NCBI GenBank assembly: GCA_009746045.1
Contig: RPFO01000015.1
Coordinates: forward strand, 2,379,498-2,443,497
DNA from: Mesostigma viride
Lineage: Eukaryota; Streptophyta; Mesostigmatophyceae; Mesostigmatales; Mesostigmataceae
Length of the DNA: 64,000 bases
Reading direction: 5' to 3'
This document shows, piece by piece, positions 3,467-56,430 of this stretch. The notes beneath the pieces were generated by a model, which saw nothing but the letters and a program-made list of their open reading frames with translations, had not been told where the DNA came from and ran no database searches. The number at the start of each line of letters is the position of its first letter. The first letter of the stretch is position 1. Position numbers and translations under genes: made by a program.

Positions 3467-3477
3467 CACTAGGAAGT
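3467..3477 (+). repeat. Left terminal inverted repeat of CACTA
   Basis: CACTAGGAAGT is the exact reverse complement of 26890-26900. After it the sequence jumps straight into element A (GACATTCC...), so only the first 11 bases of the left arm survive. AGT is shared at the join, which suggests a microhomology deletion. Confidence 0.75.
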
Positions 3478-3617
3478 GACATTCCACACCAACTCCTGTC
3501 CAGGAGGGTGTACCTAACCCTGAAGGACCGGCTGTCAACCAGTAAGCACCAGTCACCACTTGGTACTTTTCTCAAGCAGCCCACTGGGGACACCCAAGCT
3601 GAAGCAAGGCCTGGTCT

Positions 3618-6600
3618 CTATGGCCGCCCGTGTAAGGGGTCCATGAGCCCACGGAGCAGGGGGTACTGCCTCTCCGCCTTCTCCTCCAGCTTGGTGAGGG
3701 CATCTGCAGGGTTGTCCACACCAGGCACATGTTCAATGTGAGCTAGGTAGGACATCTCCTTGAGCAACAAGTAGTCAAGGTCCCTGCTCCTGGCCAGCTG
3801 CCTGTGCACAAATTGCACCATGCCCATGCTATCAGTCCTCACCAGTGTGTGCAGCTGCAACCTACAGGAAGCCACTTGACATAGCTGGTAGAAGAGCTCC
3901 CTCAAGTAAAGAGCAGTATGCAGCCCTTCACAGATTGCCCTGCACTCAGCAATATCACTGCTGGGTGTAACCCTGTTCTGCAACCGACTGTACCAGGTAA
4001 CAAGTGAGGTGTGATCTTGCTCCAGGGTAACTAATGCTGCTGCCCTGCCCCTGACCTCTGTGACCTTCCTATTATCCATAGAACTGTCCACATAGAGAAC
4101 CATGTCAAGGGGCTTGTACAAATCCACAGGACCCAGTATGAGAGGGGGAGACATCATGACAGCCTGCACCACACTCTCAGCACCCACCTCAACCAGCTGG
4201 GAATCAGTAAGTCGACTCAAACCAGCAAGTCAGGGGCACATATACTTGCAAGCCATGCCAGCATGCCCCTGATGGTAGCACACCTAGCCTGCGTGATGGG
4301 CTCCTGCAATGCATCTACAATCTGCTGTGGGTAGTCCTTACCACCCTCCATCCTGATGAACCACGAGCCCTTGGCTTGGAACAACGTAGCCTGCATGCCA
4401 CAGAAGACCATAGGCTCATTCTCCACCATGTGCTGTATCTTACCCAGCTCAAACCGCTTCTGGATCTTAGCCAAGACAGCCTCAACCCAGTCTGGTGGAC
4501 CTATGAGATGCAGGTCATCACCATGCAGTGAGGCAAAGACAGGAAGGCCATTGTGGGACCCTTGGAACAAACAGGGATCCACTGGAGACACAGAAAACCC
4601 ACAAGTATTCTTCAAGAATTTCTCTAGGCTCTTTCTCCAGATAATGGGACTGGACCTGAGACCTTCCAACCCTTTCAGAATTCTCAGGTACCTGGCCTTT
4701 ATCTCTGCTCTCCATACAGCAGGTACAGTCACAAAGAAAGGAGGGATATCTCTCCAAGTCTGCCTAGCCTGATCTTGGTCACCCTTGAGAAAAGCCCTCT
4801 TGAAATCAATCAGCACAGAGCTATAGGGCACACCCTTAACCAGAAAAGACAGAAATATACACAGCAGAATCCTCCACGTGTCATGCAGCATCCCTGGAGT
4901 ATAGAGCTCCTCATCTAACAACTGGCCAGTGCCATGATACTCGGTTACAACTGGTCTGACATGTGGCACCTGGACACCATCTACCTCCTTGAGCTTGAGG
5001 ACAAACATCAATCTGAGCAGCTGGTGAACTTCTGGCAGCTCATCCACAGGTTCTGCACAGTTGGAAACTATCCACTCATGCCCAGAAGCAACAAAGCCAA
5101 GAGTCCATGCCTTAGCCATCTTGGGGCTTGCATCATCTCGACTAGCTGGCGCCAGGGAATAGGACTGTGAGCAGCTATCTGGTACCTGTTTACCCCTAAC
5201 TGCCTTGGATCAAAGGTGGTTGGGATTATCAACAGGTCCTCAGCTATGGGCTCCTGACCTTGAGGACCCTCAGCTGGCTGACTCCTAACAGCCTTACCGC
5301 CACTGCAAGACCCTGGGAATAGTGATATCTTTCAAGGGGGAGGCTGCCCCTGCCTTCTAGTGCCAACTCATCAGAGGTCAAAGTAACCCCTGGCATGCAC
5401 AAGAAGTTCTGACCCAGAATGGCAGGCCCCTGATAGCCCTCTACCACACAGAACGTGGTGGGCACCCCTAAGATAGGCACACTCACTTCCCCAAGGATCT
5501 TCATGGACACCTTTCCTGAGAAATCAGACACAGCAAGGCAACTGGGATGGGACATCTGTAAGCCTACAGCATCCTCTTCCCTGATGACAGACACCTGTGA
5601 GTTGGTATCTACCTCCATTGTAGCTGCCCAGCACGACCCCCACCCCGTGAGCTTGGATACCTTGGGATCATGTTTGCTGCGCATGAGTGCTCGGATGACG
5701 TCCGCCATGAGAGGCCCCCGGGCCTTAGGTGGCTGCCCCGTCCCCTCTGGCCTTGTGACAGTTGCTTCAGCAGCCTCCTCCTGCTCGTCATCTTCCAGCA
5801 GGGACAGACCATCATCCACCACCAGAGGATTGTTAGCTGCTGCTGCCTGGCTCTGGCCTGGCTCCTCAACCCAGCTGGGAGGGCCTGGCCCGTCTGCAGG
5901 CCAGATTGCATGTGGCCTTCTTTCCTTGACATGAGCCCAGGACAACCTGTACACGTGCCTTGGATCCTTTTCCAAAGCCACCAGGCAAGATCTGTTAGCT
6001 TCTCCACACGAGTGACAACCCCATCCTGCCACTTCCCCCGCTTGCCTGGAATAGATGGTTCCTTCCACATCCTGACCTTCAGCCCCACCTGAGGCCTCAG
6101 CACATTCCAGTTCTTGTCCTTACGTCTCAGCTGGGCAAATAACCTATCTGCCTTCCTAAGACTGGCCTGCACCACGTTCTCAGGCAACAAGCTATACTGC
6201 AGGGCCAGGGGAGAGACAGCCACACCATCAAAGTAATAGTTAACCCTGTGGTTCAGCTGCTCTTCTATCCCCTTACACCAGGCTGCCCTCTCTAAGGCAG
6301 ATGCCACAAGTGGCACTGACTCTGCTGCTAGCACCACTGTCTTCACTTCACGTATGGATCTCTCTACAGCCCCTTGCTGCCCATGACTCTCCCTGGGGAC
6401 TACTACCAGCTTACAAGGCAGCTGGTCCTGATGCTTGAGCAAACAGTCAAACTGCAAGTCTGCCTGCACACTCTTGCACACCCCAAAGCCTGGGATCAGG
6501 GCCTTCATACCCAACAACAAGTGGTGCTCCTGCATACCAGGCAGAACGTCTATCAGCCTGTATCTGCTGAACCTGTCCACCCCCACCAATATATACAAGC

Positions 6601-7183
6601 CCCTGATATGCTGGATATCCATCTGGATGTCGCCACGCTCCCTAGCAGGCTCCCTAGCATGGGACTGAGGTGGGTGAACAGCATTCTCCTGGCAACCACA
6701 GTTCTCAGCAGCAGCCTGGCAAGCCTCCCACAAAGGCTCCCTACCTAGCTTCCAAGCAAACATTGCTGCCTGCCCAGAATGCCCAAACATATGATGCAAT
6801 CTATGGCCAGCCTCAGCATAGCTCAGCACTCTCAGTACTGACCTGGCGAGACGTCTGAACCGTGTGTGGGGACACATGATCCACTCCTGAGGTTCCAGGG
6901 CTTCCCTGCAGGCCGTCCTGACGCCCCAAGTCAGGCCCTGCACCCTGGACCGCTCCAGGCCCTTCCAGCAAGGTCCTTGGCCCTCCAGGCCAGCACCTGC
7001 TGGAGACCCACCACCTGCATGAGGCATAGGGAATTCAGCTGCAGCATTGTTATTGCAATCCAGTGGAAGAACAACATCTTTACACCCTTGGTGCTGCACA
7101 AGGGGCACACCCCCGTCCTTATGTACATCCAGCACACCTTCCCCAAGGGGTGATTGACTATTTACAGGGGATGATGTAGCTAG
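3618..7183 (-). pseudogene. pol: Element A pol (integrase-protease-RT-RNase H), frameshifted
   Basis: Same domain order as the intact pol of element C: integrase (HHMFGH, then D-D-E), a protease with DTNSQVS, RT with HGDD, and RNase H ending NPADALTK. The frame follows gag directly after UGA-CUA. Compared with B or C it has single-base deletions near 5999, 5293, 5126 and 4218, each of which breaks the frame. Everything between the breaks is highly conserved at protein level. It may therefore be a recently dead copy or one affected by sequencing indels. Confidence 0.85.
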
Positions 7184-7186
7184 TCA
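7181..7186 (-). promoter_or_regulatory. Gag-pol junction UGA-CUA, probable stop readthrough site (element A)
   Basis: On minus, gag ends CAG CAG TGA and continues CTA GCT ACA in the same frame into pol. UGA followed by CUA is a well-known readthrough context in RNA viruses. The same hexamer in the same position occurs in elements B and C. Confidence 0.6.
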
Positions 7187-8537
7187 CTGCTGCCCAGACT
7201 GGCCTCCTGCCCCAGCAGGCTTGGCCTTCCTGTCAGGACACTCACGACGCCAGTGACCTTCCTTGCCACACACAAAACATGCTCCACCCTTCTTCCCAGA
7301 CCCAGCCCCACCCTTGCCAGGCTTCCCCTGGCCTCCCTGAGGCTGCCCACCCTGCTTGCCCTGGTTGCCTTGAGCTTGGCCCTTGCCTTGCCCTTGGCCA
7401 CCCTTACCCTGCTGACCACCAGCTTGCTGGCCCCCAACCCCTCCTTGGGGACCTGCACCCTTGCCACCCTGAGCCCCCTGCCTCTGGCGCCTGAAGCGCT
7501 TACGCTTGTTGGGCCTTGCCCCATCACGGGCTGGGTACCCGGGGACATCACCTTGGCCCTGCACAGCGGAGGTGGCATTGCTGCCATGGGACTGGATAGC
7601 CTTGCAGGCAGGTTCTGGCTTCCTTATGCTGAGGATTACAAGCTCCAGAGCACGCAAGGAGCCATCAGTCTGGTTAAGAAACATGCGGGCACCGTTCCTC
7701 CCATCCACACTCAAACCCATACGGTCCAGGAAATAGTCTGCCAAGGCCCTATCTGTGACCAGGAAGCCATACTTGGCCCCCTTGTCCCTGATACGGTTGA
7801 GCCTAGCCCATTCCTCTGCCACAGGGCCCACTATCTCAAAGGTGTCATACTGATGCTTGTAGTAGTTGGTGAGGTTGAGAACCTTGTCAGAGAACTCTTC
7901 CCTCAACCCTTCCAGGAACTGTGCCCAGGTTAGCTTATCCTTGACAGCAGTCCTAGCCTTCTCCCTGACACGCTCTGACGAGTCCCTGTTGCACGTGGAC
8001 GAGTGAAACACTTGCACTAGGTTGACAGTGGGGTCCACGGAGCACACAACAAGCTCCATGTCCTCTAGCCACTTGTCCAAAGCTTCCTGTGCTAGTGGTG
8101 GGTTAAGAGGCTTTTGTCCATTCATAACAGTGACAGCACTCATGTGAGGTCTCGACCCTGGCAGCGCCTTCACTGGCTCCACCACAGCGGGTGTCACAAC
8201 AACAGCACCACTTGGTCCAGCAGGCACAGGGGAGAGCACATCCACATGAGGCCTCTTACCATTGCCGTCAGCAGAGGGGTCCCTCTTACGCTTCTCCACG
8301 GCAGGTTGCCCATTTGCCACCGTTATTGCATCAGATGCCCCCAGCGCCCGCGCCTTGCGCGCCTCCTCCACCGAGTCTTCGTGTCGCCTCTTGCTCCCTG
8401 GTCGCTTTCCCCCATCGCCGTCGCTGGCTGGGATCGCCTCTCCCACCAGCGCTCCTTGCCCTTCCCAGGCTCCTGGCTCCTCCAGCCGGTGCCCCCTCCT
8501 CGCCCTTGTCGCCGTCGCCCGGTTTGCCACGAGGCAT
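7184..8537 (-). pseudogene. gag: Element A gag
   Basis: The capsid/nucleocapsid precursor packages element RNA in cytoplasmic particles. The start is taken at MPRGKPGD (8537), which matches the start in C. The reading frame shifts once near 8470 and is then open to the stop at 7184. The N-terminal third is charged and rich in Lys/Arg. The middle (ALDKWLEDMELVV, TWAQFLEGLREEFSD, YDTFEIV) is the conserved gag core. The C-terminal part is a Gly/Gln/Lys-rich tract followed by one CCHC zinc knuckle, CFVCGKEGHWRREC. About 450 residues in total. Confidence 0.85.
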
Positions 8538-8599
8538 TATATACAAGTGGGGACACAACAATAAAGGCGAAGGAAAAAGGAAGAACTGACTCAAGCACT

Positions 8600-9770
8600 G
8601 GCGTCGCTGGGGGATGCCGTGGGCACCGTCCCAGCTACTGACTCAGCACCTGCTTGGTTCGCTGCCTCCAGCTCTCGCTCTGAGCAGTGGCTGCGATGGG
8701 CGTCTCTGGCCGCTCCTCGTCGCTGCCAGCGGCGTCCTCCCCGTCGGCGTAGGGTCCAAACACTCTGCTAACGGGTCGCCCGTCTGCAGACTTCTCCACT
8801 GGGATCCGGGGCTCGCTCCCACTCGGCGATCCCACTCAAGGTTCCTCACCCACCGCGTTCCACCACCCCGCTTGTCGTTGCAAGCCCCACGACCACCGTA
8901 GTCGTGTTCGGGCTCTTGCGGGACGTGCAGCTCAGCACGACGTCGTGCAGCGTACCCTTCTGGTACCGTCGCCTTGATCTATCTGCTGAGATGAACGTTC
9001 GATGATCCCCTCTGGCTGATCAACGAATTGGTAATGGAAGTCTTCTGGCGTTACCTCCCGACCCGTGATGACCTCGACCACTGGATCGTGTGCGTCTGGT
9101 TCCGCCGCCCGCGGTGTCGAGTGTTGACCAAATCCCAAATGGTCGTGTGGTTATCACCCACCGGTCTGCGTTACCCCGTGACTCCTGCAAAAGAATGTTC
9201 ACGAGGTGTTCGCACGTTTGTGAAACCACCTCTGTTGTCGACCAGGGGTTGTCGACTTCGCGCGCCTGCGCTTGCCTGATCACGTCCGGGACTTCAACTC
9301 CCGCGCCCAGCACAGACGTTGCCACCTGATGGTTGAACAGTCGCGCTGCTCCCAGTCCAATGGCCACGATCTGGCCCAGTGCCTCCCGCGCCAAATCCAG
9401 CTGCGACACGGTCACGTGCCCGCCCTGGTGAGCCACCTCCAGACCGTAAATGGTCGAGGACAGCTCGTCCCGTATTGACACAAACTTTTCGACGGCCTCT
9501 CGCGACAATTCGCCGGGAGCTGTCGAAGCCTCAATCTGCATCACAATGGGGTCGCTCGCCGCCGGCCCTGCTGCAGTTCCGCAAACTGCTACCCAACCTT
9601 TCTTCGCCAGCCCCCTTGCCAGGTACGCCGCCTGGACGAAGGTTGATGCGGTGCTCGGATGAGCGTAGGGATGAAAAGGTCGTGATCGCTCCGGGGCCTA
9701 CCCGAAGCTGCGGCTGCGAGCTCTGGCTTTGCGAAGGCTCAATGGCCTGTTCCCTCGGCACGTTGGACAT
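8600..9770 (-). pseudogene. Element A ORF1, extra protein upstream of gag (frameshifted)
   Basis: This ORF lies between the 5' LTR and gag. The start is taken at MSNVPREQ (9770). The frame is broken near 9670 and again near 9110. The conserved core includes FVQAAYLARGL, GGHVTVSQLDLAREALGQ, AARLFNHQVATS, QTCEHLVNILLQESRG and the motif ITTRPFGIWSTLDT. Homologous ORFs sit in the same place in B and C. I recognise no domain, and it has no zinc knuckle or catalytic motif. Its conservation in three copies argues for a real protein. Confidence 0.65.
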
Positions 9771-11100: not shown

Positions 11101-11933
11101 AGTTAGCGAACAGCCAGAACTGTGAGTTCCTGGTCTCTCGCGCCACACAACGGGATGAGCCAAAGTTGCAAAGGCAGCAACCTTTTAACCCGTGCACCAA
11201 GCCACGACCACGGTGACCTTTCCTTGGGAACTTGGTGCTAGATTAAAGTCAAGGCACATTACCTAGTCCAATGGCTGGGATTACAGGATGCCAAGAACGT
11301 ACTATTGTGAGTTCCTGGTCTCTCGCGCCACACAACGGGATGAGCCAAAGTTGCAAAGGCAGCAACCTTTTAACCCGTGCACCAAGCCACGACCACGGTG
11401 AGCAGTTCCACGTCCAATGTGGGAGCCTCGGTTCGTGCTTGCCAAGATAGCTGGTCATCCCCCATGACCAAGCTATATCCTTTGCGTTGTTCCTCGTTCC
11501 CATCGGCGTGACGAGGCACGTGCAGGCAGGCAAGCAAATCCTCAACGTCCACTGGCATCAGTGCAGAGCCAGGACGAACTGGATTTGCCTAGACTCTGCA
11601 ACCTAGGAAGTACAGGACCTGTCACAAGCCTGCAAGGCCTAGTATCCTTGCAGACCTGCGCCAGTCCTGTATTCCACCAGCCACAGGTTGCTGCTCCTCT
11701 GGTCTACGTGGACCACAGTCACGTGATAGTCAGGCTAAGCCTGTGCAGGCACGGCCTGCCACGTGTCCTGTCCACTATACCAGAGGACTGTACCCTAGTC
11801 GGCCACGGACGGCTAGGACTTCGGGACCTCATATCTTTCTCGTCCCTTGTCTGTTTCAGGCGGTCAGCACGGCGTTGGAAAGGTCTTTCCAAACTGCATC
11901 CACTTAGCATATTGGTTGCCCAAAATGCTAACT
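11101..11933 (-). repeat. 3' LTR of element B (LTR3), with internal chimeric duplication
   Basis: This LTR is 833 bp against 648 bp for its partner. It reads the first ~116 bases of the LTR, then about 90 bases (11217-11306) copied from the element's own 3' untranslated region (homologous to about 12165-12254), then the LTR again from GTGAGTTCC to CTAACT. The second join falls in a shared GTGAGTTCCTG, which suggests template switching during reverse transcription or gene conversion. Confidence 0.85.
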
Positions 11934-12943
11934 CCAACCCTTTCTTCTTTTGGAGCTGGACCAGCTTGAAACAAACCTAACCTTGCTTGTGCCCACTCAG
12001 CCACAGACCGCTTGGTCCCTTGAGGTTGATCAGACCTTTGAGGGCCCAGGTTCCTGCCTCCTTTGGGTAACAACATATCTGCCCTTGGACCAGGCTAGGT
12101 GTACTGGCCAGTGAATCAGAGGTCACCCCAGGTTATCCCCTGACCCCTTGGTCAGCTCCCAACCTTTCCTTGGGAACTTGGTGCTAGATTAAAGTCAAGG
12201 CACATTACCTAGTCCAATGGCTGGGATTACAGGATGCCAAGAACGTACTATTGTGAGTTCCTGATCTTTCACAGTTATCACAGGCGCCCGTTCTTATGGC
12301 GCCCGCCTTGGCCAGCCTTTCCCTTTTATGCTCAAAGAGACTCAGGTAGCACCTGTACAAATACTGCCTCATTGGGGAGCCCATGTCTTCACTGGGTGTT
12401 AAGCCCAGGAATCACTCATGCCAGGCTGTGGCTCTGCTGGGGAATTGAACCCCACCCCAACCTCCAGGTTTATAGGTGACCTGGAACTTTACACAAGAGA
12501 AACATTACAACCATGAGAACAACATGAGAATGACATGACATGATTATGTTTTATTCAAGCATTATATAACCCAGAATGTGGCCCCTGGCAACCATGTTCC
12601 ACATGGTCACACAACCAGGTTCTTTATTAGCAACAGGTTGGAAACAAGCACTAGAAAACATATATACAGCAACCTGTAAGAACCAGCATTCGGGTTGCCC
12701 TTGCATGGCCTAACTGTTTGAGGCCAAAGGCGTCGACTTAAGTCCTGGCGACTCTTCTGAACCCCATGGGGAGGGCCAGGCATGATTCTCAGCTGGTAGG
12801 AGTGACATTCCACACCAACTCCTGTCCAGGAGGGTGTACCTAACCCTGAAGGACCGGCTGTCAACCAGTAAGCACCAGTCACCACTTGGTACTTTGGTCA
12901 AGCAGCCCACTGGGGGCACCCAAGCTGAAGCAAGGCCTGGTCT
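11934..12943 (-). other. 3' untranslated region of element B
   Basis: About 1 kb between pol and the 3' LTR. It contains a purine-rich tract next to the LTR (AAAAGAAGAAAGGG on minus, 11936-11955) and a B-box-like GGTTCAATTCC (minus, about 12441-12451). Small open frames here are not conserved in reading frame between A, B and C, so I do not call genes. Confidence 0.6.
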
Positions 12944-15900
12944 CTATGGCCGCCCGTGTAAGGGGTCCATGAGCCCACGGAGCAGGGGGTACTGCCTCTC
13001 CGCCTTCTCCTCCAGCTTGGTGAGGGCATCTGCAGGGTTGTCCACACCAGGCACATGTTCAATGTGAGCTAGGTAGGACATCTCCTTGAGCAACAAGTAG
13101 TCAAGGTCCCTGCTCCTGGCCAGCTGCCTGTGCACAAATTGCACCATGCCCATGCTATCAGTCCTCACCAGTGTGTGCAGCTGCAACCTACAGGAAGCCA
13201 CTTGACATAGCTGGTAGAAGAGCTCCCTCAAGTAAAGAGCAGTATGCAGCCCTTCACAGATTGCCCTGCACTCAGCAATATCACTGCTGGGTGTAACCCT
13301 GTTCTGCAACCGACTGTACCAGGTAACAAGTGAGGTGTGATCTTGCTCCAGGGTAACTAATGCTGCTGCCCTGCCCCTGACCTCTGTGACCTTCCTATTA
13401 TCCATAGAACTGTCCACATAGAGAACCATGTCAAGGGGCTTGTACAAATCCACAGGACCCAGTATGAGAGGGGGAGACATCATGACAGCCTGCACCACAC
13501 TCTCAGCACCCACCTCAACCAGCTGGGAATCAGTAAGTCGACTCAGAACCAGCAAGTCAGGGGCACATATACTTGCAAGCCATGCCAGCATGCCCCTGAT
13601 GGTAGCACACCTAGCCTGCGTGATGGGCTCCTGCAATGCATCTACAATCTGCTGTGGGTAGTCCTTACCACCCTCCATCCTGATGAACCACGAGCCCTTG
13701 GCTTGGAACAACGTAGCCTGCATGCCACAGAAGACCATAGGCTCATTCTCCACCATGTGCTGTATCTTACCCAGCTCAAACCGCTTCTGGATCTTAGCCA
13801 AGACAGCCTCAACCCAGTCTGGTGGACCTATGAGATGCAGGTCATCACCATGCAGTGAGGCAAAGACAGGAAGGCCATTGTGGGACCCTTGGAACAAACA
13901 GGGATCCACTGGAGACACAGAAAACCCACAAGTATTCTTCAAGAATTTCTCTAGGCTCTTTCTCCAGATAATGGGACTGGACCTGAGACCTTCCAACCCT
14001 TTCAGAATTCTCAGGTACCTGGCCTTTATCTCTGCTCTCCATACAGCAGGTACAGTCACAAAGAAAGGAGGGATATCTCTCCAAGTCTGCCTAGCCTGAT
14101 CTTGGTCACCCTTGAGAAAAGCCCTCTTGAAATCAATCAGCACAGAGCTATAGGGCACACCCTTAACCAGAAAAGACAGAAATATACACAGCAGAATCCT
14201 CCACGTGTCATGCAGCATCCCTGGAGTATAGAGCTCCTCATCTAACAACTGGCCAGTGCCATGATACTCGGTTACAACTGGTCTGACATGTGGCACCTGG
14301 ACACCATCTACCTCCTTGAGCTTGAGGACAAACATCAATCTGAGCAGCTGGTGAACTTCTGGCAGCTCATCCACAGGTTCTGCACAGTTGGAAACTATCC
14401 ACTCATGCCCAGAAGCAACAAAGCCAAGAGTCCATGCCTTAGCCATCTTGGGGCTTTGCATCATCTCGACTAGCTGGCGCCAGGGAATAGGACTGTGAGC
14501 AGCTATCTGGTACCTGTTTACCCCTAACTGCCTTGGATCAAAGGTGGTTGGGATTATCAACAGTCCTCAGCTATGGGCTCCTGACCTTGAGGACCCTCAG
14601 CTGGCTGACTCCTAACAGCCTTCACCGCCACTGCAAGACCCTGGGAATAGTGATATCTTTCAAGGGGGAGGCTGCCCCTGCCTTCTAGTGCCAACTCATC
14701 AGAGGTCAAAGTAACCCCTGGCATGCACAAGAAGTTCTGACCCAGAATGGCAGGCCCCTGATAGCCCTCTACCACACAGAACGTGGTGGGCACCCCTAAG
14801 ATAGGCACACTCACTTCCCCAAGGATCTTCATGGACACCTTTCCTGAGAAATCAGACACAGCAAGGCAACTGGGATGGGACATCTGTAAGCCTACAGCAT
14901 CCTCTTCCCTGATGACAGACACCTGTGAGTTGGTATCTACCTCCATTGTAGCTGCCCAGCACGACCCCCACCCCGTGAGCTTGGATACCTTGGGATCATG
15001 TTTGCTGCGCATGAGTGCTCGGATGACGTCCGCCATGAGAGGCCCCCGGGCCTTAGGTGGCTGCCCCGTCCCCTCTGGCCTTGTGACAGTTGCTTCAGCA
15101 GCCTCCTCCTGCTCGTCATCTTCCAGCAGGGACAGACCATCATCCACCACCAGAGGATTGTTAGCTGCTGCTGCCTGGCTCTGGCCTGGCTCCTCAACCC
15201 AGCTGGGAGGGCCTGGCCCGTCTGCAGGCCAGATTGCATGTGGCCTTCTTTCCTTGACATGAGCCCAGGACAACCTGTACACGTGCCTTGGATCCTTTTC
15301 CAAAGCCACCAGGCAAGATCTGTTAGCTTCTTCCACACGAGTGACAACCCCATCCTGCCACTTCCCCCGCTTGCCTGGAATAGATGGTTCCTTCCACATC
15401 CTGACCTTCAGCCCCACCTGAGGCCTCAGCACATTCCAGTTCTTGTCCTTACGTCTCAGCTGGGCAAATAACCTATCTGCCTTCCTAAGACTGGCCTGCA
15501 CCACGTTCTCAGGCAACAAGCTATACTGCAGGGCCAGGGGAGAGACAGCCACACCATCAAAGTAATAGTTAACCCTGTGGTTCAGCTGCTCTTCTATCCC
15601 CTTACACCAGGCTGCCCTCTCTAAGGCAGATGCCACAAGTGGCACTGACTCTGCTGCTAGCACCACTGTCTTCACTTCACGTATGGATCTCTCTACAGCC
15701 CCTTGCTGCCCATGACTCTCCCTGGGGACTACTACCAGCTTACAAGGCAGCTGGTCCTGATGCTTGAGCAAACAGTCAAACTGCAAGTCTGCCTGCACAC
15801 TCTTGCACACCCCAAAGCCTGGGATCAGGGCCTTCATACCCAACAACAAGTGGTGCTCCTGCATACCAGGCAGAACGTCTATCAGCCTGTATCTGCTGAA

Positions 15901-16513
15901 CCTGTCCACCCCCACCAATATATACAAGCCCCTGATATGCTGGATATCCATCTGGATGTCGCCACGCTCCCTAGCAGGCTCCCTAGCATGGGACTGAGGT
16001 GGGTGAACAGCATTCTCCTGGCAACCACAGTTCTCAGCAGCAGCCTGGCAGCCTCCCACAAAGGCTCCCTACCTAGCTTCCAAGCAAACATTGCTGCCTG
16101 CCCAGAATGCCCAAACATGTGATGCAACTATGGCCAGCCTCAGCATAGCTCAGCACTCTGTCAGTACTGACCTGGCGAGACGTCTGAACCGTGTGTGGGG
16201 ACACATGATCCACTCCTGAGGTTCCAGGGCTTCCCTGCAGGCCGTCCTGACGCCCCAAGTCAGGTCCTGCACCCTGGACCGCTCCAGGCCCTTCCAGCAA
16301 GGTCCCTTGGCCCTCCAGGCCAGCACCTGCTGGAGACCCACCACCTGCATGAGGCATAGGGAATTCAGCTGCAGCATTGTTATTGCAATCCAGTGGAAGA
16401 ACAACATCTTTACACCCTTGGTGCTGCACAAGGGGCACACCCCCATCCTTATGTACATCCAGCACACCTTCCCCAAGGGGTGATTGACTATTTACAGGGG
16501 ATGATGTAGCTAG
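12944..16513 (-). pseudogene. pol: Element B pol, frameshifted
   Basis: Integrase, protease, RT and RNase H in the same order as C. Nearly the whole length is readable in two blocks (16059-14557 and 14560-12944). A single-base deletion at about 14560 separates them, and others near 16050-16130 break the integrase start. Motifs seen are GDIQMDIQ, GAVERSIRE, VDTNSQVS, ILGQNFL, FKRAFLKGD, LHGDDLHL, VDSSMD and NPADALTK. Downstream is the 3' untranslated region; upstream is gag. Confidence 0.85.
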
Positions 16514-17864
16514 TCACTGCTGCCCAGACTGGCCCCTGCCCCAGCAGGCTTGGCCTTCCTGTCAGGACACTCACGACGCCAGTGACCTTCCTTGCCACAC
16601 ACAAAGCATGCTCCACCCTTCTTCCCAGACCCAGCCCCACCCTTGCCAGGCTTCCCCTGGCCTCCCTGAGACTGCCCACCCTGCTTGCCCTGGTTGCCTT
16701 GAGCTTGGCCCTTGCCTTGCCCTTGGCCACCCTTACCCTGCTGACCACCAGCTTGCTGGCTCCCAACCCCTCCTTGGGAACCTGCACCCTTGCCACCCTG
16801 AGCCCCCTGCCTCTGGCGCCTGAAGCGCTTACGCTTGTTGGGCCTTGCCCCATCACGGGCTGGGTACCCGGGGACATCACCTTGGCCCTGCACAGCGGAG
16901 GTGGCATTGCTGCCATGGGACTGGATAGCCTTGCAGGCAGGATCTGGCTTCCTTATGCTGAGGATTACAAGCTCCAGAGCACGCAAGGAGCCATCAGTCT
17001 GGTTAAGAAACATGCGGGCACCGTTCCTCCCATCCACACTCAAACCCATACGGTCCAGGAAATAGTCTGCCAAGGCCCTATCTGTGACCAGGAAGCCATA
17101 CTTGGCCCCCTTGTCCCTGATACGGTTGAGCCTAGCCCATTCCTCTGCCACAGGGCCCACTATCTCAAAGGTGTCATACTGATGCTTGTAATAGTTGGTG
17201 AGGTTGAGAACCTTGTCAGAGAACTCCTCCCTCAACCCATCCAGGAACTGTGCCCAGGTTAGCTTATCCTTGACAGCAGTCCTAGCCTTTTCCCTGACAC
17301 GCTCTGACGAGTCCCTGTTGCACGTGGACGAGTGAAACACTTGCACTAGGTTGACAGTGGGGTCCACGGAGACACAACAAGCTCCATGTCCTCTAGCCAC
17401 TTGTCCAAGCTTCCTGTGCTAGTGGTGGGTTAAGAGGCTTTTGTCCATTCATAACAGTGACAGCACTCATGTGAGGTCTCGACCCTGGCAGCGCCTTCAC
17501 TGGCTCCACCACAGCGGGTGTCACAACAACAGCACCACTTGGTCCAGCAGGCACAGGGGAGAGCACATCCACGTGAGGCCTCTTACCATTGCCGTCAGCG
17601 GAGGGTCCCTCTTACGCTTCTCCACGGCAGGTTGCCCATTTGCCACCGTTATTGCATCAGATGCCCTGTTGCCCGCACCTTGCGCGCCTCCTCCACCGAG
17701 TCTTCGTGCCGTCTCTTGCTGCCTGGTCTCTTTCCCCCATCGCCGTCGCTGGCTGGGATCGCCTCTCCCACCAGCTGCTCCTTGTCTTGCCGAGGCTCCT
17801 GGCTTGCTCCAGCCGGTGCCTCCATCTCGCCCTTGTCGCCGTCTCCCGGTTTGCCACGAGGCAT
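16510..17864 (-). pseudogene. gag: Element B gag, frameshifted
   Basis: Homologue of element A gag, starting at the MPRGKPGD position (17864). It has frame breaks in the first third and near 17395. A one-base difference near the 3' end makes the frame miss the UGA-CUA junction and stop at TAG (16510-16512). The CCHC knuckle CFVCGKEGHWRREC is intact. The UGA-CUA hexamer itself is still present at 16511-16516. Confidence 0.8.
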
Positions 17865-17899
17865 TATATACAGTGGGAGGCAAAACAAAACAGGCGACA

Positions 17900-19060
17900 G
17901 ACAAGGAAAACTGGCTCAAGCGCTGGTGCTGCCTGAAGAAGCCGCTGGCGTTCCTCAGCTATGGCCTCCTCCTCACGCTCCTGCGCTGTGCGTGCCACCG
18001 GTGTCCCCACGCGCGGAACTGAGCGGACCTCCTCCGCGTTGTAAGGACCTAATACCCGGCTCACCGGCCTCCCGGCTGGTGTCTGCTCACCGGCAGCCTA
18101 GGCGCACTACCACGGCGATACCACTGCAGGTTCCTGACCCACCGACTGCCACCACCCCGCCTGTCGTTCCGTGACCCCGACCAATCTCAGCGAAGTCGTG
18201 CTCCGGCTCAAACGGGATATGCAACTCCGCCCTACGCCGAGCTGAGTAGCCTTCGTTTGTGCCGTCCCCTTCGTCAATCTGCTGTGACGAACGAGCTATG
18301 ATGCCCGTGGGGCGATCCACGAACTCGCTGTGAAAATCCTCGTCGGTGACGTCCCGACCGGTGATGACTGTCACCGTTGGCCCACACGCCCCCGGCCTGC
18401 TTTGCAACCTCGGTGTATCCAAGGTCGACCAAATGCCGGCTGGTCGTGTTGTGATCACCCAGTGATCGGCGTGACCACGCGCCTCTTGGATCAAGATATT
18501 GACCAGGTGCTCACACGTCTGAGCCACCACTTCAGCCGAATCCCACGGACTGTCGGCTTCACGCGTCTGCGCGTCCCGTATATATGTGACGCGTCGGTCC
18601 CCTCCCCCAGCGAGCTTGTCGCCACCCAGTGGTTATACAATCTGGTACCACCTAAACAAATGGCCACCAGCTGGCCCAGCGTTTCACGCGCTAAGTCCAG
18701 CGCCTGAATGGTGACGTGCCCGCCCTGGTACGCGACCTCCAAACTGTAGATCAACGAAGCTATTTCGTCGCGAATAGCGACGAGCCGCTCCGTGCAGACC
18801 CGACCCGTCTCCCCTGGCGACGTCGTCGCCCTTATCCTCATCACCACTGGGTCGTTTGCCGACGGCCCTGCTGCGTTTCCAAACACAGCAACCCAACCTC
18901 CTTCCGCAAGACCCCTCGCAACGTAGGCGGCCTGCACAAACGTAGAAGCGTTGGATGGGTGGGAATAGGGGAAAAACGCGTTCTCGCGCGCTGGCGCCTC
19001 GGGAGCTGCTTCGTGCCCTGGGGATGACTCAGGTGTCTCGACCCGAGCCTCGGCCGACAT
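17900..19060 (-). pseudogene. Element B ORF1, extra protein upstream of gag (frameshifted)
   Basis: The start is taken at MSAEARVE (19060), soon after the 5' LTR. Conserved blocks are FVQAAYVARGLAEGGWVAVFG, GETGRVCTERLVAIRDEIA, GGHVTIQALDLARETLGQ and NHWVATSSLGEG, then after a frame change VAQTCEHLVNILIQEARG and ITTRPAGIWSTLDT, and a C-terminal MSRVLGPYNAEEVRSVPRV block. It matches ORF1 of A and C. Function is unknown. About 380 residues if the frame is joined by eye. Confidence 0.65.
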
Positions 19061-19094
19061 GAAAAACCTTGCACAACAGAAATGCAATAGTACG

Positions 19095-19742
19095 AGTTAG
19101 CGAACAGCCAGAACTGTGAGTTCCTGGTCTCTCGCGCCACACAACGGGATGAGCCAAAGTTGCAAAGGCAGCAACCTTTTAACCCGTGCACCAAGCCACG
19201 ACCACGGTGAGCGGTTCCACGTCCAATGTGGGAGCCTCGGTTCGTGCTTGCCAAGATAGCTGGTCATCCCCCATGACCAAGCTATATCCTTTGCGTTGTT
19301 CCTCGTTCCCATCGGCGTGACGAGGCACGTGCAGGCAGGCAAGCAAATCCTCAACGTCCACTGGCATCAGTGCAGAGCCAGGACGAACTGGATTTGCCTA
19401 GACTCTGCAACCTAGGAAGTACAGGACCTGTCACAAGCCTGCAAGGCCTAGTATCCTTGCAGACCTGCGCCAGTCCTGTATTCCACCAGCCACAGGTTGC
19501 TGCTCCTCTGGTCTACGTGGACCACAGTCACGTGATAGTCAGGCTAAGCCTGTGCAGGCACGGCCTGCCACGTGTCCTGTCCACTATACCAGAGGACTGT
19601 ACCCTAGTCGGCCACGGACGGCCAGGACTTCGGGACCTCATATCTTTCTCGTCCCTTGTCTGTTTCAGGCGGTCAGCACGGCGTTGGAAAGGTCTTTCCA
19701 AACTGCATCCACTTAGCATATTGGTTGCCCAAATTGCTAACT
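19095..19742 (-). repeat. 5' LTR of element B (LTR4)
   Basis: A 648-bp LTR, AGTTAG to CTAACT, followed by the ACAAG target duplication. Apart from the 185-bp extra block it is almost identical to 11101-11933, which implies a recent insertion. Confidence 0.9.
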
Positions 19743-27050: not shown

Positions 27051-30000
27051 CTATGGCCGCCCGTACAAGGGGTCCATGAGCCCACGGAGCAGGGGGTACT
27101 GCCGCTCCGCCTTCTCCTCCAGCTTGGTGAGGGCATCTGCAGGGTTATCCACACCAGGCACATGTTCAATGTGAGCTAGGTAGGACATCTCCTTGAGCAA
27201 CAAGTAGTCAAGGTCCCTGCTCCTGGCTAGCTGCCTGTGCACAAATTGCACCATGCCCATGCTATCAGTCCTCACCAGTGTGTGCAGCTGCAACCTACAG
27301 GAAGCCACTTGACAGAGTTGGTAGAAGAGCTCCCTCAAGTAAAGAGCAGTATGCAGCCCTTCACAGATTGCCCTGCACTCAGCAATATCACTGCTGGGTG
27401 TAACCCTGTTCTGCAACCGACTGTACCAGGTAACAAGTGAGGTGTGATCTTGCTCCAGGGTGACTAATGCTGCTGCCCTGCCCCTGACTTCTGTGACCTT
27501 CCTATTGTCCATAGAACTGTCCACATAAAGGATCATGTCAAGGGGCTTGTACAAATCCACAGGACCCAGTATAAGAGGGGGAGACATCATGACAGCCTGC
27601 ACCACACTCTCAGCACCCACCTCAACCAGCTGGGAATCAGTGAGTCGACTCAAAACCAGCAGGTCAGGGGCACATATGCTTGCAAGCCATGCCAGCATGC
27701 CCCTGATGGTAGCACACCTAGCCTGCGTGATGGGCTCCTGCAATGCATCTACAATCTGCTGTGGGTAGTCCTTACCACCCTCCATCCTGATGAACCACGA
27801 GCCCTTGGCTTGGAACAACGTAGCCTGCATGCCACAGAAGACCATAGGCTCATTCTCCACCATGTGCTGTATCTTACCCAGCTCAAACCGCTTCTGGATC
27901 TTGGCCAAAACAGCCTCAACCCAGTCTGGTGGACCTATGAGATGCAGGTCATCACCATGCAGTGAGGCAAAGACAGGAAGGCCATTGTGGGACCCTTGGA
28001 ACAAACAGGGATCCACTGGAGACACAGAAAACCCACAAGTATTCTTCAAGAATTTCTCTAGGCTCTTTCTCCAGATAATGGGACTGGACCTGAGACCTTC
28101 CAACCCTTTCAGAATTCTCAGGTACCTGGCCTTTATCTCTGCTCTCCATACAGCAGGTACAGTCACAAAGAAAGGAGGGATATCTCTCCAAGTCTGCCTA
28201 GCCTGATCTTGGTCACCCTTGAGAAAAGCCCTCTTGAAATCAATCAACACAGAGCTATAGGGCACACCCTTGACCAGAAAAGACAGAAATATACACAGCA
28301 GAATCCTCCACGTGTCATGCAGCATCCCTGGAGTATAGAGCTCCTCATCTAACAACTGGCCAGTGCCATGATACTCGGTTACAACTGGTCTGACATGTGG
28401 CACCTGGACACCATCTACCTCCTTGAGCTTGAGGACAAACATCAATCTGAGCAGCTGGTGAACTTCTGGCAGCTCATCCACAGGCTCTGCACAGTTGGAA
28501 ACTATCCACTCATGCCCAGAAGCAACAAAGCCAAGAGTCCATGCCTTAGCCATCTTGGGGCTCTGCATCATCTCGACTAGCTGGCGCCAGGGAATAGGAC
28601 TGTGAGCAGCTATCTGGTACCTGTTTACCCCTAACTGCCGTGGATCAAAGGTGGTTGGGATGATCAACAGGTCCTCAGCTATGGGCTCCTGTCCTTGAGG
28701 ACCCTCAGCTGGCTGACTCTTAACAGCCTTCACCGCCACTGCAAGACCCTGGGAATAGTGATATCTTTCAAGGGGGAGGCTGCCCCTGCCTTCTAGTGCC
28801 AACTCATCAGAGGTCAAAGTAACCCCTGGCATGCACAAGAAGTTCTGACCCAGAATGGCAGGCCCCTGATAGCCCTCTACCACACAGAATGTGGTGGGCA
28901 CCCCTAAGATAGGCACACTCACTTCCCCAAGGATCTTCATGGACACCTTTCCTGAGAAATCAGACACAGCAAGGCAACTGGGATGGGATATCTGTAAGCC
29001 TACAGCATCCTCTTCCCTGATGACAGACACCTGTGAGTTGGTATCTACCTCCATTGTAGCTGCCCAGCACGACCCCCACCCCGTGAGCTTGGATACCTTG
29101 GGATCATGTTTGCTGCGCATGAGTGCTCGGATGACGTCCGCCATGAGAGGCCCCCGGGCCTTAGGTGGCTGCCCCGTCCCCTCTGGCCTTGTGACAGTTG
29201 CTTCAGCAGCCTCCTCCTGCTCGTCATCTTCCAGCAGGGACAGACCATCATCCACCACCAGAGGATTGTTAGCTGCTGCTGCCTGGCTCTGGCCTGGCTC
29301 CTCAACCCAGCTGGGAGGGCCTGGCCCGTCTGCAGGCCAGATTGCATGTGGCCTTCTCTCCTTGACATGAGCCCAGGACAACCTGTACACGTGCCTTGGA
29401 TCCTTTTCCAAAGCCACCAGGCAAGATCTGTTAGCTTCTTCCACACGAGTGACAACCCCATCTTGCCACTTCCCCCGCTTGCCTGGAATAGATGGTTCCT
29501 TCCACATCCTGACCTTCAGCCCCACCTGAGGTCTCAGCACATTCCAGTTCTTGTCCTTACGTCTCAGCTGGGCAAACAGCCTGTCTGCCTTTCTAAGACT
29601 GGCCTGCACCACATTCTCAGGTAGTAAGCTATACTGCAGGGCCAGGGGAGAGACAGCCACACCATCAAAGTAATAATTAACCCTGTGGTTCAGCTGCTCT
29701 TCTATCCCCTTACACCAGGCTGCCCTCTCTAAGGCAGATGCCACAAGTGGCACTGACTCTGCTGCTAGCACCACTGTCTTCACCTCACGTATGGATCTCT
29801 CTACCGCCCCTTGCTGCCCATGACTCTCCCTGGGGACTACTACCAGCTTACAAGGCAGCTGGTCCTGATGCTTGAGCAAACAGTCAAACTGCAAGTCTGC
29901 CTGCACACTCTTGCACACCCCAAAGCCTGGGACCAGGGCCTTCATACCCAACAACAAGTGATGCTCCTGCATACCAGGCAGAATGCCTATCAGTCTATAT

Positions 30001-30623
30001 CTACTGAACCTGTCCACCCCCACTAATATATACAAGCCCCTGATATGCTGGATATCCATCTGGATGTCGCCACGCTCTCTAGCAGGCTCCCTAGCATGGG
30101 ACTGGGGTGGGTGAACAGCATTCTCCTGGCAACCACAGTTCTCAGCAGCAGCCTGGCATGCCTCCCACAAAGGCTCCCTACCTAACTTCCAAGCAAACAT
30201 TGCTGCCTGCCCAGAATGTCCAAACATGTGATGTAACCTATGGCCAGCCTCAGCATAGCTCAGCACTCTCTCAGTACTGACCTGGCGAGACGTCTGAACC
30301 GTGTGTGGGGACACATGATCCACTCCTGAGGTTCCAGGGCTTCCCTGCAGGCCATCCTGACGCCCCAAGTCAGGCCCTGCACCCTGGACCGCTCCAGGCC
30401 CTTCCAGCAAGGTCCCTTGGCCCTCCAGGCCAGCACCTGCTGGAGACCCACCACCTGCATGAGGCATAGGGAATTCAGCTGCAGCATTGTTATTGCAACC
30501 CAGTGGAAGAACAACATCCTTACACCCTTGGTGTTGCACAAGGGGCACACCCCCGTCCTTATGTACATCCAGCACACCTTCCCCAAGGGGTGATTGACTA
30601 TTTACAGGGGATGATGTAGCTAG
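27051..30623 (-). CDS. pol: Element C pol: integrase, aspartic protease, RT, RNase H (intact)
   Basis: Open frame of about 1190 codons, entered from gag through UGA-CUA; the first Met is at 30575. Positions below are from that Met. Integrase (about 115-370) has HHMFGH with a CxC instead of CxxC zinc pair, then catalytic D near 173 (GDIQMDIQ), D near 227 (VQADLQF) and E near 258 (GAVERSIRE). The aspartic protease (about 505-585) has VDTNSQVSVI and ILGQNFL, so it lies after the integrase. RT (about 690-935) has DFKRAFLKGD, LRSSPIIW and HGDD in place of YVDD. RNase H (about 1010-1150) has VDSSMD, AECRAI, TDSMG and NPADALTK. Ordinary Copia order is protease-integrase-RT-RNase H. Confidence 0.9.
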   Translation of the reverse strand, partial: LATSSPVNSQSPLGEGVLDVHKDGGVPLVQHQGCKDVVLPLGCNNNAAAEFPMPHAGGGSPAGAGLEGQGTLLEGPGAVQGAGPDLGRQDGLQGSPGTSGVDHVSPHTVQTSRQVSTERVLSYAEAGHRLHHMFGHSGQAAMFAWKLGREPLWEACQAAAENCGCQENAVHPPQSHAREPARERGDIQMDIQHIRGLYILVGVDRFSRYRLIGILPGMQEHHLLLGMKALVPGFGVCKSVQADLQFDCLLKHQDQLPCKLVVVPRESHGQQGAVERSIREVKTVVLAAESVPLVASALERAAWCKGIEEQLNHRVNYYFDGVAVSPLALQYSLLPENVVQASLRKADRLFAQLRRKDKNWNVLRPQVGLKVRMWKEPSIPGKRGKWQDGVVTRVEEANRSCLVALEKDPRHVYRLSWAHVKERRPHAIWPADGPGPPSWVEEPGQSQAAAANNPLVVDDGLSLLEDDEQEEAAEATVTRPEGTGQPPKARGPLMADVIRALMRSKHDPKVSKLTGWGSCWAATMEVDTNSQVSVIREEDAVGLQISHPSCLAVSDFSGKVSMKILGEVSVPILGVPTTFCVVEGYQGPAILGQNFLCMPGVTLTSDELALEGRGSLPLERYHYSQGLAVAVKAVKSQPAEGPQGQEPIAEDLLIIPTTFDPRQLGVNRYQIAAHSPIPWRQLVEMMQSPKMAKAWTLGFVASGHEWIVSNCAEPVDELPEVHQLLRLMFVLKLKEVDGVQVPHVRPVVTEYHGTGQLLDEELYTPGMLHDTWRILLCIFLSFLVKGVPYSSVLIDFKRAFLKGDQDQARQTWRDIPPFFVTVPAVWRAEIKARYLRILKGLEGLRSSPIIWRKSLEKFLKNTCGFSVSPVDPCLFQGSHNGLPVFASLHGDDLHLIGPPDWVEAVLAKIQKRFELGKIQHMVENEPMVFCGMQATLFQAKGSWFIRMEGGKDYPQQIVDALQEPITQARCATIRGMLAWLASICAPDLLVLSRLTDSQLVEVGAESVVQAVMMSPPLILGPVDLYKPLDMILYVDSSMDNRKVTEVRGRAAALVTLEQDHTSLVTWYSRLQNRVTPSSDIAECRAICEGLHTALYLRELFYQLCQVASCRLQLHTLVRTDSMGMVQFVHRQLARSRDLDYLLLKEMSYLAHIEHVPGVDNPADALTKLEEKAERQYPLLRGLMDPLYGRP

Positions 30624-30626
30624 TCA
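30621..30626 (-). promoter_or_regulatory. Gag-pol junction UGA-CUA, probable stop readthrough site (element C)
   Basis: Gag ends CAG CAG TGA and the next codons CTA GCT ACA TCA open directly into pol in the same frame, with no stop for about 1190 codons. The context UGA-CUA is conserved with element A. Confidence 0.7.
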
Positions 30627-37989: not shown

Positions 37990-38639
37990 AGTTAGATGAA
38001 CCAGCCCAGAGCGTGTGAGCTCTTGGTCTTTCACGCAAAGCTTGAGCCAATTGCCGGGGACAGCAACCTTTAGCCCAAACACCAAGCCACACCTTGTTGG
38101 TCACTTCCACGTTCAAGTGGGCAACCAGAGCGCGTGCTTCCGAGATAGCTTGGCCATCCCCATGACCAAGCTATATGCCTCTTTGTTGCTCCTCGTTCCC
38201 ATCGGTGTGACGAGGCACATTGCAGGCTTGCTAGCAAATCCTCAACGTCCACTGGCATCCTTGCAGAGCCAGGACGAACTGGATTTACCTAGCTACCTGC
38301 AACCTAGGAAGTACAGGACCTGTCACAAGCCTGCAAGACCTAGTAGCATCCTTGCAGCCTTGTGCCAGTTCCAGTACCCCACCAGTCGCAGGCTGCCGTC
38401 CCTCCTGGTCTACGTGGACTACAGTCACGTGATAGTCAGGCTAAGCCTGCGCAGGCACGGCCTGCCACGTGTCCTGTCCACTACCCCAGAAGGCTGCACC
38501 CTCGCCGACCGCGGACGGCTAGGACTTCGGGACCTTATATCTTTCTTGTCCCTTGTCTGTTTCAGGCGGTCAGCACGGCGTTGGAAAGGTCTTTCCAAAC
38601 TGCATCCACTTAGCATATTGGTTGCCCAAAATGCTAACT
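37990..38639 (-). repeat. 5' LTR of element C (LTR5)
   Basis: A 650-bp LTR, AGTTAG to CTAACT, followed by GTTTC (38640-38644). Near-identical to LTR1 at 1962-2610, with which it shares the target duplication. Confidence 0.9.
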
Positions 38640-49206: not shown

Positions 49207-49725
49207 AGTTAATGCACTTGTGCAATGAAAGCGAACGTGTCTTTGATTATGGAATGGCTGGCATATATCAATCCATGCAAGCTTGCCAACCTGGCTTGCA
49301 TGGGCACGTAGGTTAGGGTAACCTAGCTATCCTGCACTAGTGCTAACCAATGAGGTGCTGGCTCCGTCCAGCTAGATCTACTCCAGCTAGGACTGATACG
49401 ATGCCCACAGGCACCGACTGCCTAACAGCACTACGTGGATGGTCCTGGACCTCCCCTAGGACCTCCGTACAGGACTAGCACTGCAACCACCTTGTGGTCT
49501 GCATCACAGCTCGTAAACCCTACCACGTGAATACCCACGTGCGTGTGCCTACATATCTCAGTGCTAATATCTAGCACCCACGTGCCCAATATGGCACGTG
49601 CGGATCTAAATCCTAGTAGAGATATGTCCAGTGTACTACACCACCGTCCATGTCCGTATCCCACTTGGGAGACGGGGACAACGCCACGTGTACTGATAGT
49701 CTAGGCCTGAAGCCCTAGAATAACT
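49207..49725 (-). repeat. 3' LTR of element E
   Basis: 519 bp. On minus the sequence just inside it (AAAGAAAAGTAATAATGGG) is purine rich and fits a polypurine tract. Confidence 0.92.
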
Positions 49726-50100
49726 CCCATTATTACTTTTCTTTGGGGAGTGAGGGGAAGACTCTTCCCACAACCCACTCATATGCCAACCACTACTGAT
49801 AAGCAAGGTTCCCCACAGGGACAACCAGGACACTGAAAGAGATGCATTTATAAAAGCGCCCATAGCTCCTCCGTGTTGGATACAACATCCCCACTGGTTG
49901 GGTGCCTGTGTTGGGAAAACCATTGTCAGAAAAATATGACCACACGTTTTATTGACAAAGAACAAGCCATCAATAAAGGAGGACCCTTCTGACCTCAATC
50001 TTTAATGACGCAAAGAGAGTCTTACGGGTGGGACACTTCAGACCCTGCCACCCCATGACCACCCTCCTATCTGGTGCTAATAGCCCTAGGCTGAGGCACT
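49726..50100 (-). other. 3' untranslated region of element E
   Basis: About 375 bases between the RNase H stop and the 3' LTR. No gene or strong structure seen. Confidence 0.6.
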
Positions 50101-52439
50101 TCACCCTCTGCCGTTATATGGGTTCATCAGCGTGTATAGGACTCTGTACTGAGGCCCTGCAGCCTGTGGCACTTTTGTGAGTGCATCTGCTGCATTGTCA
50201 GGGTCTCGGATGTGAGTCTTGGACTCCAGATAGGTACACTCCTGCTTGAGGACAATCCAGTCCAAATCGGTGTGCACAGCCAAGGGGTTGTCCAGGAAAG
50301 AGAGAAGGGATTGACTGTCAGTCAGCAGATGGGATTTGACACCAGCATAACTACCAGCCTGATGCTGCAACCACACCAGCAGATGGTTCAAGTACCTGGC
50401 ATGCAACACAGCTGATACCACAGCACGGCATTCAGCTACATTGCTGCTGACTGCCTTGCGCTTGTGGAGTCTGCTGAACCAGGAAACCAAAGATTGCTTG
50501 CCAGTGGGGTTAGACAACATAAATAGCCTGCCTCTCTGGCTTGTACCTTAGTGACTACCCGTGACTCCATGGAACTGTCCATCATGCATGTGATGTGGAT
50601 GGGTTGGAACAGATCCAAGGCATGAAGAATAAGGGGAGGGCCATCATGCAACACCTGTTTAATAGCCCTAGACCCTACCTCCATGAGGACATCATCATCC
50701 ACTCTGCTGACCACTGCCAGATGAGGAGCACAAGTGGCACACAGCCAACCTAGCTTACCCCTAATAGTGGGACAGAGATCAGGAGTGATGTCAGAGGGAA
50801 GAACATCTTTGCAAGACATGACATACTCAGGGGATGCTTTGAGAGAACACACCCACTCCTTCTGCTCCTTAAACAGGTTCAGAATGATGCCACAGAACTT
50901 GACAGGATCTTTCCCCAGCTCCAGCTGCTTGCCTAATTCAAAGCTAGCAGACACTTGAGCAATGAAATCCTCCACAGCTGCCCTGGGACCAGTAATGAGC
51001 TGATCATCCCCATGCCACACAAACATCATCATACCAGCAGGATGAGGGATGGTGAAGAAACAAGGGTCAATATCATCATACTGGGCCCCCAGCTTCAGGA
51101 AGACCTCTTGGGCAGACAGCCTAAAAATTTTAGGTGCTGACTGAAGCCCTTCTACCCCCAAGTTAGGCCTTAGATGAGGTTCCTTGATGTCCCCAGACCA
51201 GACTTTGGGAGTGTTTACCACATAGACTTGACCCCTCCACACCTTTTGGGCTATGTCAGGGTTGCCTTTAAGGAAGGCACGCTTAATGTCAGTGGCTTTA
51301 CACACGTAGTCCTTACCAGCATTCAGATGGTGAAGGAAAGTGGCCAACAGGACCTTAAGAGACGTCTGCTGAATACCAGGGGTATACAGTTCAGCCTCTG
51401 TTAGCTCAGTGGAGCCCCTGAACTCCGTGACACAAGGTCTGGCATGAAAAATGGGAGGTGTCCCATCTGCCTGGGGTTTATGCTTGCAGACAAACTTCAG
51501 TCTGAGCTTTCTGGCCCCTTGTGGCAGTGCCTCAATCGGTGTTACAGGTGGTACCTGGGACTTGCTACGTGGATCAGGACAAACCCATTCCTCTCTAGCC
51601 CTGTTAAAGGCTTCCATCCATTTCAGAAAACCAATCTGCGTTTGACAGTCTTTGACCACATCATCATAGGACAAGGGAGACATGGACGCAATGTCCCATC
51701 TACCAAGCCCAAACGCAGAGGGGTGTAGCTTCTGAGAATGAATGAGGGAATCAACACAGGGTTCCTGACCTGGGAGGTATTTTATGTTGACAGCATTGAT
51801 GGCTGCTTCCAGGCCATCACTGATCTGTGTTAAAGGAATTTTGAAATGGTCCAGGGTGACCTGCCCCACCCCAGTCACACTCAACCTCCCAGCTGAGATG
51901 ACTACTCCAGGGTATGAGACAAATGGTTCCCCCAGCAGTGCATTCCCCTTGTAGCCCTCTACTACCTGGAAGGGAGTGGGCACACCCAGAATGGGAATTA
52001 GCACTTGGCCTTTGACTGCCATTTTTGTTTTGCCTGAAAAATCTGACACTCTAGCCCAGGGCGAGCGTTGCAGACTTAGGCCAGATACAGCTTGTGCACT
52101 GATGATGCTCACCTGTGCCTGTGTGTCTACTGCCAGAATACTGGGATCCTGGTTAGATTCACCCACAGCATTGACTTGTGCTGCACCTGCTGCCATTTGT
52201 GCCTTGGCAGTGTGTGCTCTATGTAGAGCTTTTAGAGCCTCAGCAAATTTATTCCTGGGGACAACAGGATCTGCTGCTTCGTGTGGCTGTTCCTGAGATG
52301 AGGGAGGAGCGACCTGCTGCTCATCCAGTGCACGTTCCTCCTGCCCAGTTGGACCAGTGGGCTGTGGTGGGGCTGCACCACTGAGGAACACAGGAGCGTC
52401 TATGGTTGTGTTGCTTGCATCAGCTATGTCCCTGGCCAT
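50101..52439 (-). pseudogene. pol: Element E pol part: aspartic protease, RT, RNase H
   Basis: The frame from 52439 holds a protease motif LAVDTQAQVSIIS with VEGYKGNALLGEPF, then RT with ATDIKRAFLKGNPD, VEGLQSAPKIF and VWHGDDQLITG. RNase H begins with MMDSSMESR. Near 50520 the frame shifts, and RNase H continues (SSNVAECRAVVSAVLHARYL, LLTDSQSLLSFL, DPDNAADALTK) to 50101. The protease is directly before RT and after the integrase, as in A-D. The catalytic tripeptide is DTQ here and DTN in the others; the RT box is HGDD in all. Confidence 0.85.
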
Positions 52440-52499
52440 TCACTGGGTGAGACCAACCCACCAGACTGAGGCTCTGAATCCATGTCCAAGAATTCTACC

Positions 52500-55105: not shown

Positions 55106-55107
55106 GC

Positions 55108-56381: not shown

Positions 56382-56430
56382 TTTAAAATGATAGAGTAGT
56401 ATAAAAACTGTGAGAGTTTTTATTAATGCA

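Follow-up and report, generated by a model that had tools for sequence, protein, structure and literature searches.

Several long terminal repeat (LTR) retrotransposons found in a 64,000-nucleotide window of the genome of the streptophyte alga Mesostigma viride (contig RPFO01000015.1, positions 2,379,498 to 2,443,497, analysed over its whole length) very probably belong to a copia-related lineage whose pol runs in the order integrase, protease, reverse transcriptase (RT) and RNase H (INT-PR-RT-RH). Many copies from several families have this order within one intact frame, together with an integrase fold, a copia-type RT and RNase H recognised by profile, LTRs of the form AGTTA...TAACT and 5-bp duplications. 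The lineage is real and multi-copy. Because the intact pol copies are near-identical, it has probably been active recently, and its mode of action is most likely that of LTR retrotransposons in general.

The representative with an intact pol in the window is element C, whose pol (P0001; 27051..30623, minus strand) is a stop-to-stop frame of 1190 residues. Its integrase (29349..30269, minus strand) has an HHCC finger (His 131, Cys 163), the residues D190, D243 and E275, of which the first was placed by alignment and the others lie in the motifs VQADLQF (240) and QGAVER (271), and a C-terminal beta domain. The retropepsin-like protease domain follows (28779..29078, minus strand), with EVDTNSQVSV at residue 525 (DTN at 29037-29045) and ILGQNFL at residue 590 (28836-28856). 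The copia-like RT (27744..28478, minus strand) carries DFKRAFLKG at 795 and the active box HGDD at 889, and the copia-like RNase H (27099..27533, minus strand) carries VDSSM at 1034, AECRA at 1081 and DNPADALTK at 1159. From the N to the C terminus, the Pfam matches are rve (185-223, E 0.12), gag-asp_proteas (523-596, E 0.28) and RVT_2 (717-918, E 1.6e-4), all three weak and under the curated cut-offs. Both these matches and the catalytic motifs stand in the sequence that a first-pass annotation, made from the letters alone, had read for element C. Upstream of pol lies the 3′ frame of gag (P0002; 30627..31580, minus strand), with a zinc knuckle at 30675-30722 (zf-CCHC, E 2.1e-6).

The first-pass annotation had extended the order to four more elements of the window, A, B, D and E, and to three distinct families. 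In a window scan, DTN/DTQ...LG motif pairs turned up five times, always on the minus strand, which fits elements A to E; C is 47% identical to E and 36% to D, so that three families are indeed distinct. The pol of A, B, D and E is disrupted by frameshifts or stops. Comparison of P0001 with the genome gave at least 41 match rows, 19 of which stay open over 1186 residues or more. A further family, F, was located with the protein P0009 as query; among the matches listed, 38/38 rows are open and 63-64% identical to P0009. The genome search scores the best candidates only, so the copy numbers are lower bounds. P0009 itself comes from a 6224-base ENA contig, has the same order as P0001 and was the sole protein with E <=1e-5 among 7989 scored candidates from 5.8 billion. 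The order INT-PR-RT-RH is found in C, F, P0009 and two D-type loci, D1 and D2. In D1 (L036) a single frame of 2110 residues runs from the zinc knuckle of gag through integrase, protease and RT to RNase H; D2 (L039) has a pol of 1287 residues that is 81% identical to D where the two match. The integrase Glu pattern has no match in D1, and the window copy of D has QGMIER at that place. The order read in the window is confirmed by intact frames from other copies and from other families. Further proteins found are the fragments P0012, 100% identical to the RT of C, and P0013, the chimeric gene model P0015, which carries a D-type RNase H, and the remote copia protein P0014; scans of viral and prokaryote contigs with P0001 found no relative. 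Downstream of the D1 copy (L036, L015) sits another broken member of the lineage, DTNSQVSIIGTR...VSDFSG, which is unlike C, D, E and F.

The domain between integrase and RT probably has the retropepsin fold. Fold prediction, which the first-pass annotation had proposed as a check on the DTN region, points towards a retropepsin for the internal domain of C, and the domain aligns in register with retropepsins. The best Pfam families, all with weak scores, are gag-asp_proteas, Peptidase_A2_2 and Asp_protease_2, as opposed to Pol_BBD in 4/4 canonical copia elements of the genome; the earlier description of the protease as Gypsy-like is weakly supported to this extent. Among PDB sequences, P0001 by itself had no match, and the protease profile matched two unrelated chains. 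Alignment of the new protease with canonical copia by hhalign gave no signal, but the controls (copia with gypsy, copia with P0014) failed too, and this test says little.

Two findings bear on whether the internal domain is the working protease of the element. One is that the catalytic D-T/S-G of retropepsin (A2) proteases is replaced by DTN or DTQ in all 51 motif rows (49 with the LG motif, window copies being recounted as loci). This substitution, like the weak Pfam scores, would suit a retropepsin fold that has no proteolytic activity and is now a spacer or dimerisation module, processing being carried out by a host protease or not at all. Such a loss is unlikely, though it has to be reckoned with: six representatives all keep the Asp-Thr pair and the LG of the second motif, the protease domain is about as conserved between C and F as the integrase (46% versus 42%), and the third triad position is loose in this genome, where DSA, again without the Gly, stands in three of the four canonical copia proteases examined. 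The other finding is that the remote copia P0014 also has no Pfam protease match, so a missing match does not equal absence. The elements might then be ordinary copia with the usual upstream protease too divergent to be seen and an unrelated region downstream, and residues 1-118 of pol, before the integrase, are in fact poorly conserved (21-30% identity). This is nevertheless very improbable. In keeping with the first-pass statement that no protease motif occurs in gag or before the integrase, neither Pol_BBD nor any other Pfam protease family matches upstream of the integrase in P0001, P0002, P0009, P0011 or nine gag-side frames (from B, C and D), whereas the four canonical copia proteases of the genome all score 6.9e-11 or better and the downstream domain is the one in register with retropepsins.

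That the order came about when nested insertion, recombination or misassembly put pieces of different elements together can hardly be entertained. The window is a nest of elements, and C has only pol in common with A and B, their gag-side sequences being different; yet the order lies within single intact frames at many places in the genome, and recurs in P0009, from another source, and in families just 36% identical. It is rather improbable, but less far-fetched, that the lineage has already been catalogued, for example in a repeat database, and its order never remarked on. The Mesostigma viride genome paper counts 60339 LTR retroelements, so the copies were probably masked as repeats; the words copia and integrase do not occur in its main text (PMC6947507). 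Against prior description, a literature search for INT-PR-RT-RH found no paper stating the order, a search that covered mostly titles and abstract openings and had most subscription papers and repeat databases outside its scope. A plant survey by Neumann and others (2019) gives the copia order as GAG-PROT-INT-RT-RH, dropped elements of unexpected order as likely prediction errors and scored TG/CA ends only, so that elements of the present kind would be missed (PMC6317226). As far as the literature was searched, the INT-PR-RT-RH order of pol is new.

Sequence comparisons support a relationship of the INT-PR-RT-RH lineage to copia. RVT_2 matches C, E and D with E values of 1.6e-4, 0.033 and 2.8e-8, the curated cut-off being exceeded by D only, while RVT_1 has no match in P0001, P0004 or P0005. 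Against canonical copia, hhalign gives probabilities of 95.9-96.9% for RT, about 96% for that of C, and 96.7% for RNase H (E 5.5e-9 to 1.3e-10; 3.5e-10 for the RNase H of C). The match of canonical copia RT to P0014 is far stronger (E 9.6e-40) than that of the new lineage to copia. In an RT tree of 12 rows, the seven new rows form one group against five canonical ones with support of 100/100 on a very long branch; the tree lacks an outgroup and drew a program warning about long-branch attraction, the row of P0014 is long, and those of P0013 and F are nearly the same. The lineage integrase has a retroviral integrase fold, and an integrase ranks top when its profile is compared with the PDB (E 0.13); however, hhalign gives it only 0.3% with four canonical copia integrases and 1.0% with P0014, where the control of canonical copia with P0014 worked (97.6%) and that with a partial gypsy integrase failed. 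The four canonical copia frames used (L041-L044, from 150 RVT_2 match rows in the genome) have the protease before the integrase, with Pol_BBD at 6.9e-11 to 8.2e-17, and L048, a fuller version of one of them, has LTRs 99.5% identical and, by reading, TG...CA ends and an AAATG duplication. The RT box HGDD of P0001 (residue 889) and its relatives differs from the usual xVDD, which is HVDD in the four canonical copia RTs examined. Because the order and protease type of Pseudoviridae were looked for and not found, the lineage is not filed in that family. In evolutionary terms, the copia-type protease (Pol_BBD) before the integrase would be absent, and a different protease, of A2/Gypsy type, would adjoin RT. 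A tentative extension, possible but not favoured, is a separate lineage of superfamily rank that split off before the sampled copia diversified, kept the PR-RT-RNase H core of gypsy, BEL and retroviruses, and had an integrase independently joined in front. It would then be an intermediate that has survived and reveals how the order of copia came into being, with an integrase recognising ends other than the near-universal CA.

The LTR ends are a distinctive feature of the lineage. AGTTA...TAACT ends occur in 30/32 D rows, the alignments of the other two being truncated and rows L006, L015 and L021 repeating the places of other rows. They are also found in C and B of the window and in F, while in E they are found at the start only. 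The ends of F in L049 are AGTTAACG...CGTTAACT; self-comparison found no LTR pair in F, and its 3′ LTR was then read from the shared ends. C-type loci, E and F have similar tracts, AGAAAGG..TGG, before the 3′ LTR. All three LTR pairs with matching outer flanks have 5-bp target duplications (ATGAT in D, CTTGT in B, GAAAC in C). The 5′ LTR of the C insertion (37990..38639, minus strand; AGTTAGC...CATCTAACT) shares the outer flank GAAAC with its likely 3′ LTR (1962..2610, minus strand), which is 99.7% identical to it and has the inner end AGCTAGC (AGCTA). Judged from identity and flanks, these LTRs, 36 kb apart, are likely the pair of one C insertion with other elements in between. In Pseudoviridae the primer site after the 5′ LTR is usually complementary to initiator tRNA-Met; the sequences at this place are CGTACTATTGG in C, TGCATTAATAA in D and TGGTATCGGAG in the canonical control L048. 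A literature search on unusual LTR ends found no paper.

The knuckle-bearing frame of C and F stops at a TGA with the base C after it, and pol runs on without a change of frame. The junction is TGA CTA in 5/5 C-family loci (L001-L005, L001 being the window copy, where the candidate readthrough stop is at 30624..30626, minus strand) and TGA CTT in 4/4 F loci. UGA CUA is a leaky stop context. Elsewhere, gag and pol are fused in D1 and in overlapping frames in D2. The number of open codons before TGA varies (318, 233, 104, 145 and 104 in the C loci; 206, 73, 138 and 5 in the F loci), so that several copies have a gag that is broken, frame-shifted or substituted, and the gag of C, by eye, lacks about 160 residues present in the gag frame of B. 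In families C and F, the ribosome may sometimes read through the UGA, so that both Gag and a fused Gag-Pol are made. The internal protease would dimerise in the particle and free the integrase and the RT-RNase H, and the integrase would insert the cDNA by ends other than TG...CA. Near the gag-pol border, copies that have pol in common at about 98% or more differ sharply on the gag side (26901-30802 versus 3470-7362 and 12794-16691; L049 versus L045-L047), which looks like swapping of gag modules between subfamilies.

The other elements of the lineage in the window also lie on the minus strand. The internal part of element A (3470..8601), of the same pol family as C, has broken frames; its right LTR has the outer flank GGGGA, and no partner LTR was found. 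Element B (11101..19742), again of the C family, has AGTTAGC...CTAACT ends, the CTTGT duplication, and frames for INT-PR (14557-16068) and RT-RH (12944-14566); its left LTR (11101-11937) is interrupted and partly duplicated (11121-11216 = 11306-11401). Element D (49207..56950) has LTRs at 49207-49725 and 56431-56950 (98.8% identical, AGTTAT...TTAACT) flanked by ATGAT, a PR-RT frame (P0005, 50436-52439) and integrase pieces (52424-53589). Element E (60762..63954) consists of an INT frame (P0010, 63151-63954) and a PR-RT-RH frame (P0004, 60762-63194). Between the LTR and the gag of C sits a PAT/Ngaro-like tyrosine-recombinase element (32207-37541, plus strand; P0003, Phage_integrase E 2.8e-6, with an RT recognised by eye), which has split direct repeats on both sides (32207-32414 = 37105-37312; 36908-37109 = 37337-37541). 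A gypsy-type gag, protease and partial RT (P0006, P0007), with a partial integrase by eye further on, occupy 38858-41883 and 48623-49228 on the plus strand. Long arrays of 8-base units (CCGTGCCA, CCGGCACA) at 41966-42805 and 45856-47117, in both orientations, make large inverted repeats, and 39-base units form a tandem array at 25184-25579, downstream of C pol.

The order of pol domains, the type of protease and the LTR ends are features by which LTR elements are sorted and detected. That all three depart from the usual while a copia-type RT and RNase H are kept shows the modules to have more freedom than had been assumed, and makes the lineage a datum on the origin of the copia order. The near-identical intact copies lay the protease activity, the UGA readthrough and the end choice of the integrase open to direct assay.

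Among known systems, Ty1/copia (Pseudoviridae) resembles the new lineage in RT and RNase H (RVT_2 by profile), LTRs, a zinc-knuckle gag and a 5-bp duplication, as in canonical L048. However, its order is PR-INT-RT-RH, in contrast to INT-PR-RT-RH; the International Committee on Taxonomy of Viruses (ICTV) profile of that family lists protease, integrase and RT-RNase H as the parts of Pol (PMC8515867). The new lineage also has a protease without a Pol_BBD match, an integrase without detectable profile similarity, the HGDD box and AGTTA...TAACT ends, TG...CA being usual in copia but not strictly defining. Ty3/gypsy (Metaviridae) shares a protease of the gag-asp_proteas/A2 kind (by weak matches) adjoining RT, but its order is PR-RT-RH-INT, whereas in the new lineage the integrase precedes RT-RNase H and the RT matches RVT_2, not RVT_1. 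Gmr1-like elements are an earlier case of LTR elements in which the integrase has moved (PMC2774666); they are gypsy elements with a copia-like integrase position, while the new lineage has a copia-like RT and its protease after the integrase. Troyka is an earlier case of a deep LTR lineage that owes its definition in part to unusual ends, but has CG...CG ends, 3-bp duplications and the usual gypsy order, as against AGTTA...TAACT and 5 bp in the Mesostigma viride elements.
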